Assembly (NCBI GenBank): GCA_016195815.1
Contig: JACPYX010000004.1
Coordinates: forward strand, 1 to 64,000
Length of the DNA: 64,000 nucleotides
DNA from: Chloroflexota bacterium
Lineage (GTDB): Bacteria; Chloroflexota; Anaerolineae; Anaerolineales; Villigracilaceae
Direction: 5' to 3'
The translations under genes and the position numbers were made by a program. The notes beneath the pieces were generated by a model. It did not search any database. It had not been told where the DNA came from and saw only the letters and a program-made list of their open reading frames with translations. Shown piece after piece: positions 7,100 to 16,887 of the stretch (position 1 is the stretch's first letter; the number at the start of each line of letters is the position of its first letter).

Positions 7100-7137
7100 T
7101 TGACACATTTTGCAACAGTAGTAAAATACCGCCCAAT
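7100..7137 (+). promoter_or_regulatory. Promoter of the hcs leader transcript
   Basis: TTGACA (7100-7105), a 16-bp spacer and TAAAAT (7122-7127) form a near-consensus sigma70-type promoter. The leader ATG is at 7138, 10 bases after the -10 box, so the predicted transcript starts at most a few bases before the ATG. The segment after the -10 (ACCGCCCAATATGTTTAG) is identical to the argG leader. Confidence 0.8.
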
Positions 7138-7245
7138 ATGTTTAGAGACCAAGCAAGTATCTTCATGAAGGCCAACGCCAAGCGCAAGCCCACTTCTGCA
7201 ACTTCGGTTGTCGGATTTGGGCATGTTCGGTTAAACAGGAAATAA
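7138..7245 (+). CDS. Putative Lys/Arg-rich leader peptide of the lysine operon
   Basis: A 35-codon ORF lies directly after the promoter, with no room for a ribosome binding site. It carries Lys at residues 11, 15, 17 and 35 and Arg at 3, 16, 31 and 34; residues 15-17 are K-R-K and the last codon before TAA is AAA (Lys). The argG leader has the same length and the same first two codons. A small hairpin (TAAGCAA, loop GGTA, TTGCTTTA) overlaps the stop codon. A role in attenuation is inferred from layout and composition; no translation evidence is available. Confidence 0.6.
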   Translation: MFRDQASIFMKANAKRKPTSATSVVGFGHVRLNRK

Positions 7246-7285: not shown

Positions 7286-7320
7286 AAACGCTCTCCGATA
7301 ACGGAGAGCGTTTTTTTATT
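7286..7320 (+). terminator. Intrinsic terminator/attenuator before hcs
   Basis: A perfect 12-bp stem (AAACGCTCTCCG, loop ATAA, complement) is followed by a T-run. It stands 40 bases after the leader stop and about 48 bases before hcs, so it would stop transcription before the operon unless prevented. A second nested hairpin (TTGGAG..GAAGC..GCTTC..CTCCAA, about 7320-7350) follows it. Confidence 0.85.
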
Positions 7321-7365: not shown

Positions 7366-8748
7366 ATGATCGAGATTCTGGATACAACTTTACGAGAAGG
7401 CGAGCAAACGCCATACGTCAATTTCACGATTGACGAGAAGCTTCACATCGCGCGCCTACTGGACCAGATCGGCGTGGACATGATCGAGGCTGGCGACCCC
7501 TCCGTTTCGCCGAATGTAGCGGCGGCCATCGAACGCATCGCTTCTCTCGGACTTCAAGCCGAGATCGTTGCCCATTCGATTGCTTCACGCCCGGGCATTG
7601 ACCGCGCCAAGGCCTGCGGTGCAAACCGCGTGGCGATCTTTTATGCCACCTCGAACATCCATTTGGACGCGAAATTGCATAAAACGCAGGAGCAGGCGAT
7701 TGACATTATCACCGGGCATGTCGCCTACGCGCGCGGACTGGGTTTGAAAGTCCGCTACACGCCCGAAGACGCGACGCGCACCGATTTTGAATTTCTCGTC
7801 CGCGTGTGCAACGCCGCGCTTGAGGCGGGCGCAGACCGCATCAGTTTTGCGGATACGCTGGGCATTATGCAGCCGCATATTTTTTATGAGCGCGTGTGCG
7901 CCCTGCGGGAGAGACTGCTTCCCTGCAAAATTGACCTGCATTGCCACGATGATTACGGTCTTGCGCTGGCAAATGCCATGGCGGGTATCCGCGCGGGCGC
8001 CGATTGCATCCACACTACGGTCAACGGGCTTGGCGAACGCACAGGCATCCCGGATTTGGCGGAGACAGTGGTCGCATTTCATAATCTTGAAGGAGTGAAG
8101 AAATACAACCTCGAACCTTTGATGTCCATCTCGAATTATCTCGAAAACGTATCGGGCTTTTTTATGGCTCCCAACAAACCCATCACGGGACAGAATGCCT
8201 TCACCCACAAAAGCGGAGTCCACACGAACGGCGTTCTTAAAGACCCGCGCACGTATGAACCGTTCGATCCGTCTATATTGGGGCGCGAGCGCAAGATTGT
8301 GATTGATAAATACACGGGCAAGAGCGCGGTGCAGTCCCGTTTGGATGAATACGGCATCGAGGTCAGCGCGGCGGAACTGGAAGTGATCGTTTCGCGCATC
8401 AAAAATATCGGCGACCAGCGCAAACAATTATTCGACACAGACATCATCGAGATCGCCGAGCATGTGACAGGACGCGAGATTGATGTCATTCCGCACGACA
8501 TCAGCGCGCTGGTGATGCTTGAAGTCGAATCGCATGTTTACACTTCTTCAGTGGTGCGCCGTTTGCGCGGCTTTGCGAACGTGAGCAATGTCTATGAGAT
8601 CACGGGTGATTACGACATCAGCGCCTTTGTCAACGTGGAGAATGTGATGGCATTGAATAACCTGATCGAGGAAGTCCGCACTGTGCAGGGGGTCAAACGC
8701 ACCGATACGCGCATGGTGTTGAAAAAATATAACGGCAACGGCAAGTAA
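7366..8748 (+). CDS. hcs: Homocitrate synthase with C-terminal RAM domain
   Basis: Condenses 2-oxoglutarate with acetyl-CoA to homocitrate, the first step of the alpha-aminoadipate lysine pathway. The TIM-barrel DRE-TIM domain shows DTTLREGEQTP at residues 6-16 and the metal-binding DLHCHDDYG, then NGLGERTGIPDLAE and HKSGVHTNG. The last 75 residues or so (ALVMLEVESH onward) resemble a RAM/Lrp-type ligand-binding domain, as described for Sulfolobus homocitrate synthase, and could mediate lysine feedback. 2-Isopropylmalate or citramalate synthase are alternatives by family, but the following homoaconitase, homoisocitrate dehydrogenase and lysX favour homocitrate. First gene after the leader/terminator; hacA follows after 16 bases. 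Confidence 0.9.
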   Translation: MIEILDTTLREGEQTPYVNFTIDEKLHIARLLDQIGVDMIEAGDPSVSPNVAAAIERIASLGLQAEIVAHSIASRPGIDRAKACGANRVAIFYATSNIHLDAKLHKTQEQAIDIITGHVAYARGLGLKVRYTPEDATRTDFEFLVRVCNAALEAGADRISFADTLGIMQPHIFYERVCALRERLLPCKIDLHCHDDYGLALANAMAGIRAGADCIHTTVNGLGERTGIPDLAETVVAFHNLEGVKKYNLEPLMSISNYLENVSGFFMAPNKPITGQNAFTHKSGVHTNGVLKDPRTYEPFDPSILGRERKIVIDKYTGKSAVQSRLDEYGIEVSAAELEVIVSRIKNIGDQRKQLFDTDIIEIAEHVTGREIDVIPHDISALVMLEVESHVYTSSVVRRLRGFANVSNVYEITGDYDISAFVNVENVMALNNLIEEVRTVQGVKRTDTRMVLKKYNGNGK

Positions 8749-11649: not shown

Positions 11650-12498
11650 ATGTTGCGGATTGGATTTTTATACACCCGCCTGCGCGTGGAAGAAAAATAT
11701 CTGCTTGACGAATTGGAAAAATATTCGGACGTGGAAGTTGTCCGCATTAACGATGGCGAACGATACTTTGATATTTCCAAAATCTCTGAACCGATAGATG
11801 TGCTCTTCGAGCGTTCGATTTCTTATTCACGCGGAATCTATATCTCAAAGATTTATGAAGCCAACGGTGTACGCGTGGTCAACTCGCCAATGGTGGCCGA
11901 ACGCTGCGGCGACAAATATGTCACCAGCCAGATTCTTGTGCGGAACGGAATCCCAACCCCCAGAGTGCTGATGGCCTTCGACGAGGAGTCCGCTTTGGGG
12001 GCGATTGAAGCGTTCGGTTATCCGTGCGTGTTGAAACCCGTCATCGGTTCGTGGGGACGCCTGCTTGCAAAAGTGGATAACCGTCACGCGGCCGAATCTT
12101 TCATCGAGCACAAAGCCACGCTGGGAGTCAATCATCAGGTTTTTTATATTCAGGAATATATCAACAAGCCTGGGCGCGACATCCGCGCTTTTGTGATTGG
12201 CGACGAACTTATTTGCGCCATCTATCGCTCATCCGAAAACTGGATCACCAACACGGCGCGCGGCGGTGTGGCGACGAATTGTCCCGTCACCGATGAGATG
12301 GCGGATTTGTGCAAGCGCGCCGCGCGCGCTGTCGGCGGGGGATTGCTGGCGCTCGATCTATTTGAAACTGAAAACGGATTCGCCGTCAACGAGATCAATC
12401 ACACGATGGAGTTTCGCAACAGCATCGCGACCACAGGCGTGAACATCCCACAAAAAATGGTGGATTATGTTTTGGAGCAGGCGATGACAAAACCTTGA
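11650..12498 (+). CDS. lysX: LysW-alpha-aminoadipate ligase LysX (ATP-grasp)
   Basis: An ATP-grasp ligase that joins the amino group of alpha-aminoadipate to the C-terminal glutamate of the carrier LysW. The 282 residues share a common plan with the paralogue at 16021: N-terminal [16 protein letters not shown], central [40 protein letters not shown] and the metal-binding NEINHTMEF. Its place at the end of the homocitrate operon suggests aminoadipate as substrate. Assignment of this copy to lysine and the other to arginine is by context only. Confidence 0.87.
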
Positions 12499-12531: not shown

Positions 12532-12613
12532 ATGTCGTTGCGAGGAGGGCAGCAGCCCGACAAAGCAATCCTCACGTAACTGGAGACTGCTTCGCCAAAG
12601 GTCGCAGTGACAT
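12532..12613. repeat. GTCATTGCGAG palindromic repeat, copy B
   Basis: Ends ATGTCGTTGCGAG and GTCGCAGTGACAT, with internal AAAGCAATCC and GACTGCTTCG. It is the most diverged of the five copies and lies between lysX and the argG promoter. Confidence 0.8.
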
Positions 12614-12643: not shown

Positions 12644-12681
12644 TTGACATATTTCGTGCGGATGGTAGAATACCGCCCAAT
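12644..12681 (+). promoter_or_regulatory. Promoter of the argG leader transcript
   Basis: TTGACA (12644-12649), a 16-bp spacer and TAGAAT (12666-12671). The leader ATG (12682) is exactly 10 bases after the -10 box, as at the hcs leader, and ATACCGCCCAATATGTTTAG is common to both. This points to a duplicated control unit. Confidence 0.8.
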
Positions 12682-12789
12682 ATGTTTAGCCCGTTTGCAC
12701 TGCCGCGTACACGTCGTCCGAAGCCCGCTTCCCTGAGAAGGTTGGGAGTTTTTCGTTTGGATGACGCAACACATGCAACGGTGCGCTGA
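12682..12789 (+). CDS. Putative arginine-rich leader peptide of argG
   Basis: A 35-codon ORF with seven Arg residues (9, 11, 12, 19, 20, 25 and 35) and Lys14. The codon before the TGA stop is CGC (Arg). A short GTGC..GCAC hairpin overlaps the stop, and a strong terminator begins 20 bases later. The argG product makes argininosuccinate, so an arginine-rich leader before an attenuator fits ribosome-sensed arginine supply. No ribosome binding site is possible if transcription starts where the promoter predicts. Confidence 0.65.
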   Translation: MFSPFALPRTRRPKPASLRRLGVFRLDDATHATVR

Positions 12790-12809
12790 AGCACACGCAT
12801 AAGTCAACC

Positions 12810-12846
12810 AAAACAGCCCTCCTTCTCGGAGGGCTGTTTTTATTTT
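12810..12846 (+). terminator. Intrinsic terminator/attenuator before argG
   Basis: A perfect 13-bp stem (AAAACAGCCCTCC, loop TTCTC, complement) ending in TTTTATTTT. It lies between the leader stop (12789) and argG (12925). A GGAGTCCCGAA element just after it matches GGAGTCCTGAA at the same relative place before hcs. Confidence 0.87.
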
Positions 12847-12924
12847 CCAACCTGGAGTCCCGAACTTGTTTCGGCAAACGCTGGAGCAAGCTCTCGCACC
12901 CCAAGAATTAAAAGGAGTAAGACA

Positions 12925-14196
12925 ATGAATCCAAAACCAAAACCGCAAATCAAGAAAGTTGTGCTCGCCTATTCAGGCGGACTCGACACATCGGTGATCG
13001 TGCCATGGCTGAAAGAAAATTACGGCTGTGAAGTGGTCTGCTTTTGCGCCGACGTGGGGCAGGGCGACGAAGATATGCGCGGACTCGAACAAAAAGCGAT
13101 TAACAGCGGCGCGAGTCAGTGCATCATCCATGACATGAAAGAAGAATTCGCTTCTGATTATCTTTTCCCAATGCTCAAGGCAGGGGCGGTGTATGAACAC
13201 AAGTATTTATTAGGCACGTCTGTGGCGCGCCCGTTGATTGCAAAACATCTCGTGGACGTGGCTCACCAAGTCGGTGCGGACGCAATTGCTCACGGCGCGA
13301 CAGGCAAGGGAAATGATCAGGTTCGTTTTGAATTAACCGTCATGGCGCTCGACCCGCGACTCAAGATCATCGCTCCGTGGCGCGAGTGGGATATCCGTTC
13401 TCGTGAAGACGCGATTGCATATGCCGCGAAACATAATGTGCCAGTCACCGCCACGATCAAATCCATTTACAGCCGCGATTCAAATCTCTGGCATCTTTCA
13501 CACGAAGGCGGCCTGCTCGAAGACCCGTGGAACGAACCTGAAGAAGCGATGTATCAACTTTCCACTTCACCAGAGAACGCGCCTGAGCAGGGTGAGTATA
13601 TTGAGATCGAATTTGAAAGCGGCAATCCGATTGCAGTCAACGGCGAAAAACTTTCACCTGCAAAAATTATCGAAACGCTCAATGCCATCGGCGGCGCGTA
13701 TGCCATCGGGCGCGTTGACCTGGTTGAGAATCGCCTCGTGGGCATGAAGTCACATGGCGTGTATGAAACTCCGGGCGGCACAATTCTTCTTTACGCCCAT
13801 CGCGAGCTTGAGTCGCTTGTGCTTGACCGCGAGACCATGCACTTCAAGGAAATGGTCGCGGTCAAATATGCCGAAGTAACTTACAACGGCTTATGGTTCA
13901 CGCCTTTGCGCGAAGCGATTGACGCCTTCGTCAATTCTACGCAAGGTCCTGTCACGGGTTTCGTGCGCCTCAAACTTTACAAAGGCAACATCATCACTGC
14001 GGGCCGCAAGTCGTCGTTCAGTTTGTATCGCGAAGATTTCGCCACCTTTGGCGAAGAGAATGTTTACGATCAGAGTCACGCCGAGGGTTTCATTCGTCTC
14101 TTTGGCTTGAGCATGAAAGTCCGCGCGATGAATGGTCTGCCTGTTTCTGGCCTCGATATGCCCAAGCCGGATTACTCAAAATTCAAAAGAGATTGA
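12925..14196 (+). CDS. argG: Argininosuccinate synthase
   Basis: Joins citrulline and aspartate with ATP hydrolysis to AMP, the penultimate step of arginine synthesis. The 423-residue protein has the PP-loop [13 protein letters not shown] near residues 13-25, [13 protein letters not shown] and [13 protein letters not shown], all typical of ArgG. The ATG is preceded by AAAAGGAGTAAGACA. The C-terminal [19 protein letters not shown] extension is slightly long. Its TGA stop forms the first bases of the next palindromic repeat (TGATGTCATTGCGAG). Confidence 0.97.
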
Positions 14197-14329
14197 TGTC
14201 ATTGCGAGCCGCCGCTCTTGTACTTTGGCGGCGAAGCAATCCCCAACATTGTGGCGGAGATTGCTCACCTGCACTGCACCGTACGCAGTGCGGTACAAGT
14301 GTCGGGCAAAGAACGCCCTCGCAATGACG
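14196..14329. repeat. GTCATTGCGAG palindromic repeat, copy C, with nested palindrome
   Basis: The left end overlaps the argG stop codon and the right end is CTCGCAATGACG. Inside, in addition to the GAAGCAATCC/GGAGATTGCT pair, is a nested palindrome (GCACTGCACCGTACGCAGTGC region) found in opposite orientation in copy E. Confidence 0.85.
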
Positions 14330-14344
14330 AAAAAAGGAGAACCT

Positions 14345-16020: not shown

Positions 16021-16887
16021 ATGCAAAGACGATTGAAGCTTGGCGTTTTATTTTCACGCGTGCGCGTGGAAGAAAAATGGATTTTCGCGGCGATGGAAAA
16101 ACGCGGCATTGATTACGAACGACTCGACGACCGAGTGATTTCATTTGACCTGGAAAATCCTGAACCGTGGCTTGCGTTTGACGCGGTGCTGGAACGCAGT
16201 ATCAGTTACACCAGCGGATTGTATGCGCTGCGATTGTTGAACGCGTTCGGCGTGCCTACTGTCAACACAGCAGCAGTAGCGGAAGTGTGTGGTGATAAGT
16301 TAACCACGTCCGCCATGCTGGCGAAGGCGGGCGTGCCGCAGCCGCGCAACATGCTGGCGTTCACGCCCGAAGCCGCATTGGAGGCGATTGAAGCGTTTGG
16401 CTATCCTGTGGTGTTGAAACCTGTCGTCGGTTCGTGGGGACGGCTGCTGGCGAAGATCAATGACCGCGATGCGGCGGAGGCGGTGCTTGAACACAAAGCC
16501 ACACTGGGTTCGGTGCAACATTCTGTTTTTTACATTCAGGAGTTTATCGAGAAACCAGGCCGCGACATCCGTGTGATTGTGATCGGTGGACGCGTGTTGA
16601 CGGCGATGTATCGCAAGTCCGAACATTGGATCACGAACACGGCGCGCGGCGGCGAAGGGGAGTTGTGCCCCATCACACCTGATATCGAAGAGTTGTGCTT
16701 GAAAGCAACGGCGGCTGTTGGCGGCGGTGTGCTGGCAGTTGACCTGGTGGAACATCCTGAAAAGGGGTTGATCGTCAATGAGATCAATCACACGATGGAA
16801 TTTCATACGATGCAGCCGTTGAGCGGAATTGATATCGCGGGAGAGATTGTGGAGTATGTGGTGAGCGTGGCGAAAGAAAAAGTTTGA
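16021..16887 (+). CDS. argX: LysX-family ligase, probable LysW-glutamate ligase ArgX
   Basis: A second ATP-grasp ligase, 288 residues, close relative of the LysX at 11650 ([62 protein letters not shown]). It lies between lysW and lysY behind argG and argH. I infer that it attaches glutamate to LysW for arginine synthesis, as ArgX does in Sulfolobus. After NEINHTMEF the two paralogues diverge ([14 protein letters not shown] here, [14 protein letters not shown] in LysX), which may reflect substrate choice. Its TGA stop merges with the next repeat. Confidence 0.83.

Follow-up and report, generated by a model that had tools for sequence, protein, structure and literature searches.

A predicted leaderless or nearly leaderless attenuator with arginine control codons precedes argG in a LysW-type gene cluster of a Chloroflexota bacterium

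The window analysed here, that is, the whole stretch of DNA under study, is the first 64 kb of contig 4 of an Anaerolineae-like (Chloroflexota) genome of 3.16 Mb in 23 contigs. It contains a LysW-type cluster in which lys genes lie upstream, and arg/lys genes downstream, of a short leader region (the Arg leader). The order is a homocitrate synthase-like gene, two homoaconitase-type subunits, a homoisocitrate-dehydrogenase-type gene, lysX, the Arg leader, argG and argH; beyond argH come a lysW-like ORF, a second lysX-like gene and ORFs resembling argC/lysY, argB/lysZ, argD/lysJ and argE/lysK. NCBIfam supplied the names of argG, the homocitrate synthase-like gene and the two lysX genes, while the other cluster names represent our reading of the ORFs. 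The genes needed below are:

7366-8748, + strand: homocitrate synthase-like gene, the first behind the Lys leader (NCBIfam)
11650-12498: lysX (NCBIfam)
12925-14196, + strand: argG, argininosuccinate synthase, the first gene under the proposed control (TIGR00032, 488 bits against a cut-off of 268)
16021-16887: second lysX-like gene (NCBIfam)

The gene at 7366-8748 scored 411.9 bits with the homocitrate synthase model TIGR02146, just below its cut-off of 413.55, and 517.4 bits with the 2-isopropylmalate synthase subfamily NF002085, just above its cut-off of 517; we take it to be a homocitrate synthase of the lysine pathway because of its neighbours, lysX among them. In some organisms LysW-type enzymes are able to serve both the lysine and the arginine pathways, and for that reason a pair of Lys and Arg leaders in one cluster is of special interest. 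Two intergenic stretches, 12533-12600 and 14197-14335, resemble by eye a short dispersed repeat of the ATTGCGAG ... AAGCAATC type.

The following features lie between lysX and argG:

12644-12649, + strand: -35 hexamer TTGACA (promoter pattern; similar promoters in relatives)
12666-12671, + strand: -10 hexamer TAGAAT, with the shared start motif ACCGCCCAATATG after it
12682-12789, + strand: leader ORF of 35 codons, predicted to be leaderless, its ATG 10 nt past the -10
12706-12717, + strand: control codons CGT-ACA-CGT-CGT (Arg9-Thr10-Arg11-Arg12), from conservation across 43 leaders
12810-12840, + strand: intrinsic terminator of 13 bp with a U-rich tail after it (pattern scan and covariation)

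A preliminary description of this DNA had proposed a sigma70-type promoter, a 35-codon ORF with seven Arg codons beginning about 10 nt after the -10, and a perfect 13-bp terminator before argG, and each of these was recovered. The two hexamers are separated by a 16-nt spacer and a TG precedes the -10; Arg is encoded at exactly the positions given, codons 9, 11, 12, 19, 20, 25 and 35; and the terminator, with all 13 pairs, is followed by TATTTT. The same description had placed a hairpin over the stop codon of the ORF: a small stem is indeed present there in the fold, but the main hairpin lies elsewhere, at 12712-12766. The leader RNA (247 nt) folded better than 200 of 200 shuffled sequences (z -4.0). 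Terminator-like sites were not clearly above chance (2 found against a shuffle mean of 0.7) and neither, by itself, was the promoter pattern (1 found against a shuffle mean of 0.6). Since the promoter match alone does not exceed chance, the case rests on comparison.

We therefore turn to 80 argG loci, which were fetched and, together with the argG of the window, scanned over up to 600 nt of upstream sequence for a sigma70-type promoter with, no more than 22 nt past its -10, an ATG and then a stop in the same frame. These relatives are mostly contigs labelled Chloroflexi, Anaerolineales or Anaerolineae, with identities of at most 96%; one locus that carries the leader is from Longilinea arvoryzae, a member of the Anaerolineae (L029). 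A promoter with a leader ORF precedes argG in 59 of the 80 other loci as well as in the window, and a terminator was found by scan in 52 of the 58 leaders submitted, window included. It is this conservation that lifts the observation above chance. The 21 loci in which the scan detected no leader all have argG genes 64-78% identical, and two of them have less than 300 nt of upstream sequence. When several candidates were present the script favoured ORFs with at least three Arg; picking by promoter score alone changed one of the 60 leaders (L062) and none of the 43 aligned ones, and 58 of the 60 picks made in this way had at least two Arg.

The alignment comprises 43 of the 60 leaders, the other 17 having been judged by eye to be more divergent and omitted (at least two Arg occur in 16 of these, and none in L080). 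An Arg-x-Arg-Arg core shares the reading frame of the ATG in all 43 aligned leaders: the two are always separated by a multiple of three nucleotides, the true lengths being 27, 30, 33 and 36 nt, and no stop codon intervenes. From the core to the downstream pairing segment that we call region 2 (see below) the frame is not kept, the 43 leaders being distributed 16/15/12 over the three phases, and the leader RNA 3' of the control codons is well conserved in nucleotides regardless of frame. Selection thus appears to hold the frame as far as the Arg codons and, after them, only the RNA. Arg is encoded at codon 9 in 43/43 leaders, at codon 11 in 43/43 and at codon 12 in 41/43; codon 10 is free, with many meanings (Arg in 2/43). 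Conservation in relatives accordingly vindicates three of the Arg codons to which the preliminary description had drawn attention, but not Arg 19, 20, 25 and 35, which fall in the frame-drifting part of the ORF and are not conserved.

The peptide LPRTRRPKPTS is kept among close relatives, as would be expected if the nascent peptide itself stalled the ribosome on abundant free arginine, like the fungal arginine attenuator peptide. Distant leaders, however, retain the Arg codons and not the peptide (for example MKTLSNINRRLRRRTRK and MYLNLVRRPRRKTLIPP), and a stall in excess arginine would be predicted to free the antiterminator described below and to raise argG expression, which is the wrong sense for a gene of biosynthesis. 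We consider a stalling peptide extremely unlikely.

The preliminary description had reported no convincing antiterminator pairing. Such a pairing was found between 12735-12746 and 12817-12827, as part of a set of segments with mutually exclusive partners:

12712-12731, + strand: region 1, the 5' side of an anti-antiterminator hairpin, overlapping Arg codons 11 and 12 (fold, pair counts)
12735-12746, + strand: region 2, GAGAAGGTTGGG, whose partner is either region 1 or the 5' arm of the terminator (pair counts, covariation, folding)
12756-12766, + strand: outer 3' arm of hairpin 1:2, TTTGGATGACG with CGTCGTCCGAA (fold, pair counts)
12817-12827, + strand: region 3, CCCTCCTTCTC, 5' arm and loop of the terminator, antiterminator partner of region 2 (covariation, folding)

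Across the 43-leader alignment, 85.2% of the cells of the 2:3 antiterminator pair, compared with at most 64.8% for slid versions, which are also lower in double-changed cells. In shuffle controls, which ignore the relatedness of the leaders, the 11 cells changed on both sides compare with a mean of 3.8; none of 500 shuffles matched the antiterminator in cells paired, in double-changed cells or in covariation score, and 6 of 500 matched its number of double-changed pairs. The terminator gives a still stronger signal, with 91.9% of cells paired and 31 double-changed cells against 4.4 in shuffles. Hairpin 1:2, which is predicted to span 12712-12766, contains Arg codons 11 and 12 and competes with the antiterminator; 82.5% of its cells pair, a value reached by 2 of 500 shuffles. 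Its covariation is weak (the score was matched by 36 of 500 shuffles and the double-changed pairs by 153 of 500), which is understandable, if not proof of anything, because the 5' side of this hairpin consists of codons.

Folding with competing structures was a check that the preliminary description had proposed. In these tests the RNA ended at the terminator loop and the antiterminator was counted when at least 6 of its pairs formed. With the whole leader free, 2:3 formed in 7 of the 43 leaders; when region 1, the codon region, was masked in silico, the fold flipped to the antiterminator in 43 of 43. Median duplex energies were -15.3 kcal/mol for 2:3 and -9.4 kcal/mol when region 2 was shuffled; in 5 of the 43 leaders (L020, L032, L037, L038 and L040) the pairing of the natural region 2 was equalled by 10 or more of its 100 shuffles.

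We conclude that the element is very probably a ribosome-mediated attenuator of the trp type that controls argG together with the genes following it and whose leader ORF starts at a leaderless or nearly leaderless AUG. Within the present analysis this conclusion is based on the anatomy of the leader, the conserved frame of the Arg codons, the covariation of the antiterminator and terminator, the in silico switch, and sister leaders whose codons match their pathways. From the same material we infer that the leader is translated, that initiation is leaderless, that ribosomes stall and that the switch responds to arginine. When charged tRNA-Arg is ample, the ribosome would clear codons 9-12; hairpin 1:2 (12712-12766) would reform after its passage and sequester region 2, and the terminator at 12810-12840 would stop RNA polymerase. 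Under a shortage of charged tRNA-Arg, the ribosome would wait on Arg9, Arg11 or Arg12 and cover region 1; region 2, thereby freed, would pair with the terminator's 5' arm (12735-12746 with 12817-12827) while the 3' arm is yet to be transcribed, and transcription would reach argG. The stop codon lies past region 2 in 40 of the 43 leaders and before the end of region 2 in 3, and a ribosome finishing past region 2 would therefore let hairpin 1:2 reform. The central proposal of the preliminary description, a leader peptide with Arg codons controlling a terminator before argG, is thus supported by a covarying antiterminator, by codons kept in frame and by the masking test. A second possible role of the element is to shield argG from the lysine promoter: a transcript reading through from the lysine operon would carry the Arg leader without a 5'-terminal AUG, would be poorly translated and would terminate.

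An attenuator can also release products with functions of their own, as is the case for rnTrpL and peTrpL of Sinorhizobium, for which trans roles are described in the available part of PMC7298713. By analogy, the terminated Arg leader could be a constitutive short transcript acting in trans as a small RNA or small protein, with the control of argG secondary. The cis switch, with its covarying antiterminator, nevertheless accounts for the conservation; the frame is lost after the control codons; and Arg codons occur in each of the 19 argG and carA leaders that share the start motif (see below). As the main function of the element we find a trans product barely credible; a trans role in addition to the cis switch is possible.

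As to how the attenuator is translated, leaderless or nearly leaderless initiation is probably the simplest reading of the spacing between -10 and ATG. The other reading is the same attenuator with Shine-Dalgarno-led translation of a transcript that starts farther upstream, its leaderless look being an accident of promoter prediction. The 5' end of the leader is indeed predicted, from a promoter match at chance level, and the first scan covered only ATGs close behind a -10: those more than about 20 nt away go unseen, so the scan is blind to Shine-Dalgarno-led leaders. Within that scan, however, the distance clusters at 10 nt (39 of 60 leaders; 17 lie at 6-9 nt and 4 at 11-15 nt); the exact -10-to-ATG motif occurs 63 times in 120 genomes and its reversed form once; and by eye no Shine-Dalgarno-like sequence is visible in the 10 nt before the leader ATG (ACCGCCCAAT). 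We therefore regard translation from a Shine-Dalgarno sequence as unlikely. The preliminary description had called a leaderless start unlike the classical cases, which was an overstatement: as far as the available portions of these papers go, leaderless attenuator peptides are described for trpL of Sinorhizobium meliloti (PMC7298713), for several leaders of Streptomyces lividans (PMC8079986) and for ilvB of C. diphtheriae (PMC5784534). Like the Arg leader, these leaders have a transcript beginning at the AUG, amino-acid codons and, in some, a terminator; they differ in serving Trp, Leu, Ile/Val, Met and Thr and in belonging to other phyla, and their 5' ends come from the papers whereas that of the Arg leader is predicted. 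In a survey of leaderless genes the relevant row reads 'Chloroflexi 4 (/12) 4.7 (4.0, 5.7)' (PMC3160421), and from the part of the survey available we understand this to mean 4 genomes out of 12, averaging 4.7%.

When the leader DNA was used as a query against the genome, the promoter and start turned up a second time, 5.5 kb upstream and ahead of the homocitrate synthase-like gene:

7100-7127, + strand: Lys leader promoter (TTGACA ... TAAAAT)
7138-7245, + strand: Lys leader ORF, MFRDQASIFMKANAKRKPTSATSVVGFGHVRLNRK, with Lys control codons
7207-7215, + strand: Lys leader region 2, GTTGTCGGA, antiterminator partner of 7294-7302 (covariation, folding)
7286-7313, + strand: Lys leader terminator

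Thirteen Lys leaders were compared, namely that of the window, 11 from the argG loci and L198, which came from the search with covariance model R1 (see below); L032 (150 nt of upstream sequence) and L008 (contig end) were excluded despite a homocitrate synthase match above 60% identity. Lys codons are kept in 13/13, the script having demanded a simple Lys/Arg motif and all 13 leaders given to it having passed. One Arg codon beside a Lys codon (AAG CGC/CGA) is likewise kept in 13/13. The Lys antiterminator (7207-7215 with 7294-7302) has 88.3% of its cells paired and a covariation score reached by none of 500 shuffles; its 3 double-changed pairs were matched by 126 of 500. Counted at 5 or more pairs, it formed in 11 of 13 leaders when masked (the failures being L041 and L058) and in 0 of 13 when unmasked. 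The Arg and Lys leaders share a AAGCCCACTTC stretch adjoining the control codons. In Thermus thermophilus a Lys-codon leader peptide reportedly precedes the lysine (homocitrate synthase) cluster; it and the leader at 7138 would control the same aminoadipate-pathway genes in different phyla. We know of no Thermus-like leader peptide for arginine.

Four exact copies of the motif TAnnnTnnCGCCCAATATG are present in the genome of the window, before the Lys (homocitrate synthase-like), Arg, aspartokinase and chorismate mutase genes. Allowing up to 2 mismatches gave 34 sites against 19 for the reversed pattern, and the looser matches are therefore mostly due to chance. In 120 genomes of the family the exact motif was found at 63 sites in 36 genomes, with 1 site for the reversed control. 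These sites precede argG (15), carA (4), homocitrate synthase-like genes (7), lysX (1), chorismate mutase (15), aspartokinase (12), hisG (3), uracil-permease-like genes (4) and a PLP aminotransferase-like gene (1), the last site being at a contig end. The genes were identified by tblastn to reference proteins named by NCBIfam (the aminotransferase only weakly); lysX and two of the three hisG pass NCBIfam cut-offs, two permeases match the uracil permease and NCS2 models below their cut-offs, and the remaining genes of these two kinds, one hisG (L248) and two permeases, were named by reading their translations. Because carA and hisG were not found in the genome of the window, their leaders were seen only in relatives.

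Arg codons are present in 19 of the 19 motif leaders before argG or carA. Cognate residues make up 17.0% (R) of leaders before argG/carA, 10.5% (K) before lysine genes, 29.6% (F+Y) before chorismate mutase, 27.2% (T+M) before aspartokinase and 20.7% (H) before hisG. When gene labels were permuted, the observed cognate content was reached in 0 of 20000 trials, and the cognate set was the most enriched in 51 of 57 leaders; the F+Y and T+M sets were chosen after the leaders had been seen, and the 57 leaders are related rather than independent trials. On balance we favour the reading that these leaders form a family-wide regulon of candidate leaderless attenuators, in which one promoter-start module (TAnnnTnnCGCCCAATATG) is combined with interchangeable control codons: Arg for argG and carA, Lys for homocitrate synthase and lysX, Thr/Met for aspartokinase, Phe/Tyr for chorismate mutase, His for hisG and a U-tract for the uracil-permease-like genes. 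On this reading the Arg and Lys leaders would be duplicates with recoded specificity. The analysis of antiterminators covered the Arg and Lys leaders.

Several individual leaders may be described. A leader MSASVRFTFAYYFYGLRSVAVGCA with Phe/Tyr codons and a terminator precedes chorismate mutase (aroH; L099, G000 contig 6, 208985-209225), and an MTLTATTL leader with a terminator precedes aspartokinase (L098, G000 contig 6, 14205, minus strand); aspartokinase leaders of relatives contain runs such as MTMTTTT, that is, Thr and Met codons. A branched-chain leader, MNTIFTLSLIVVILAVLIIKDLF, lies with a terminator before ilvD (L208, G000 contig 22, approximately 159470-159640), its ATG 19 nt past the -10 and with no obvious ribosome binding site. 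No leader was found upstream of the ilvB of the same genome, because ilvD precedes ilvB there and the leader sits before ilvD. Elsewhere, branched-chain leaders precede ilvD in L195 and ilvB in 8 loci of one other family of the class (f7); the latter (L183, L184, L185, L187, L190, L200, L201 and L206) were found by the Arg covariance model. A similar GTCGTC-type stretch encodes Val in the ilvB leaders; in the Arg leaders it is read as CGT CGT.

That covariance model, R1, matched 81 of 396 genomes at E <= 0.001, many of the listed matches being to the terminator only. Among 32 of the listed places that were read, we found 5 argG with the ORF visible, 3 carA, 1 homocitrate synthase-like gene, 8 ilvB and 1 ilvD; 4 others were Arg-leader-like without a confirmed argG, and 10, including L203, had no placeable leader. 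A promoter-plus-ATG pattern gave 45 places in the genome of the window against 10 for the reversed control; all 45 were read, and most were rejected, having ordinary genes or nothing recognisable downstream.

Searches against Rfam bear on a further alternative, namely that the leader RNA is a riboswitch or T-box that senses arginine or uncharged tRNA-Arg directly and that the ORF is incidental. Good conservation of the nucleotides past the codons, whatever the frame, would suit such an RNA, and the same genome does contain a T-box (RF00230) upstream of trpE (L209, 961-1317; E 2.4e-12, 59 bits, below the gathering score of 93), from which it follows that Trp is probably handled by another RNA device. 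At gathering thresholds, however, no Rfam family was found anywhere in the window, and loose thresholds over the Arg leader gave sub-threshold matches only, with no T-box among them (Phe_leader RF01859 at 26.1 bits and Thr_leader RF00506 at 24.8 bits, where the thresholds are 55). The frame from ATG to core is kept in 43/43, and the sister leaders swap codons to suit their pathways, which a ligand-binding RNA would have no need to do. We judge direct sensing by the RNA to be very unlikely. Eight other leader loci likewise gave no Rfam family at gathering thresholds. Overall, a T-box or riboswitch, a fungal-type stalling peptide and a stand-alone small RNA or protein were considered and rejected.

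In E. coli the trp, his, leu, thr, ilv and phe attenuators follow one plan: a leader ORF with control codons, mutually exclusive 1:2, 2:3 and 3:4 pairings, and a terminator before the first structural gene. The Arg leader has the same plan of ORF, predicted exclusive pairings and terminator; it is unlike them in its Arg codons, in its target argG, in a 5' UTR predicted to be very short or absent, and in scoring below Rfam thresholds. A survey of Rfam cis-regulatory RNAs includes, in the part available, attenuators for His, Leu, Thr, Trp, Ile/Val and Phe, with Arg and Lys not among them, and suggests a gamma-proteobacterial origin for amino-acid attenuators (PMC3766115). Consecutive Arg codons in a leader ORF are described as sensing arginine through ribosome pausing in the Salmonella orf34-speF system; this system differs in controlling a polyamine gene and in involving Rho-dependent termination, RNase G and translation, and the available text does not describe an intrinsic terminator/antiterminator pair (PMC6386406). 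The main text of a survey of premature terminators contains no arginine, argG, lysine or Chloroflex- (PMC2965389). Among the open-access papers listed by literature searches we saw no terminator attenuator for arginine biosynthesis, no Chloroflexota attenuators and no such regulon. If our reading is correct, arginine biosynthesis joins the pathways under ribosome-mediated terminator attenuation, as does lysine biosynthesis outside the case reported for Thermus; classical attenuation would here be coupled to leaderless initiation as a rule across the regulon; and a natural set of leaders with a common start module and differing control codons would be available for the study of how attenuator specificity is recoded.

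Finally, some leaders point to other kinds of target. A promoter, a short ORF and a terminator, with the exact start motif, lie before the uracil-permease-like genes of L225, L228, L231 and L256, and the same arrangement with an inexact motif lies before what we read as a pyrC-like gene in the genome of the window (L129, contig 17, 39805, minus strand). A U-rich tract is present in the leaders of L225, L231, L256 and L129. In three of these (L225, L231 and L256) there is no gap between the stop codon and the terminator, an arrangement that recalls pyrBI attenuation in E. coli. Leaders with Asn/Thr codons (NGNNNT and TNNTRT, in L217 and L125) precede a PLP-dependent aminotransferase-like gene and may hint at its product. 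In L203 (approximately 130-300), the motif GCGCCCAATATG and an ORF with K/R codons precede an apparent substrate-binding lipoprotein gene; this is possibly the leader of an amino-acid transporter.
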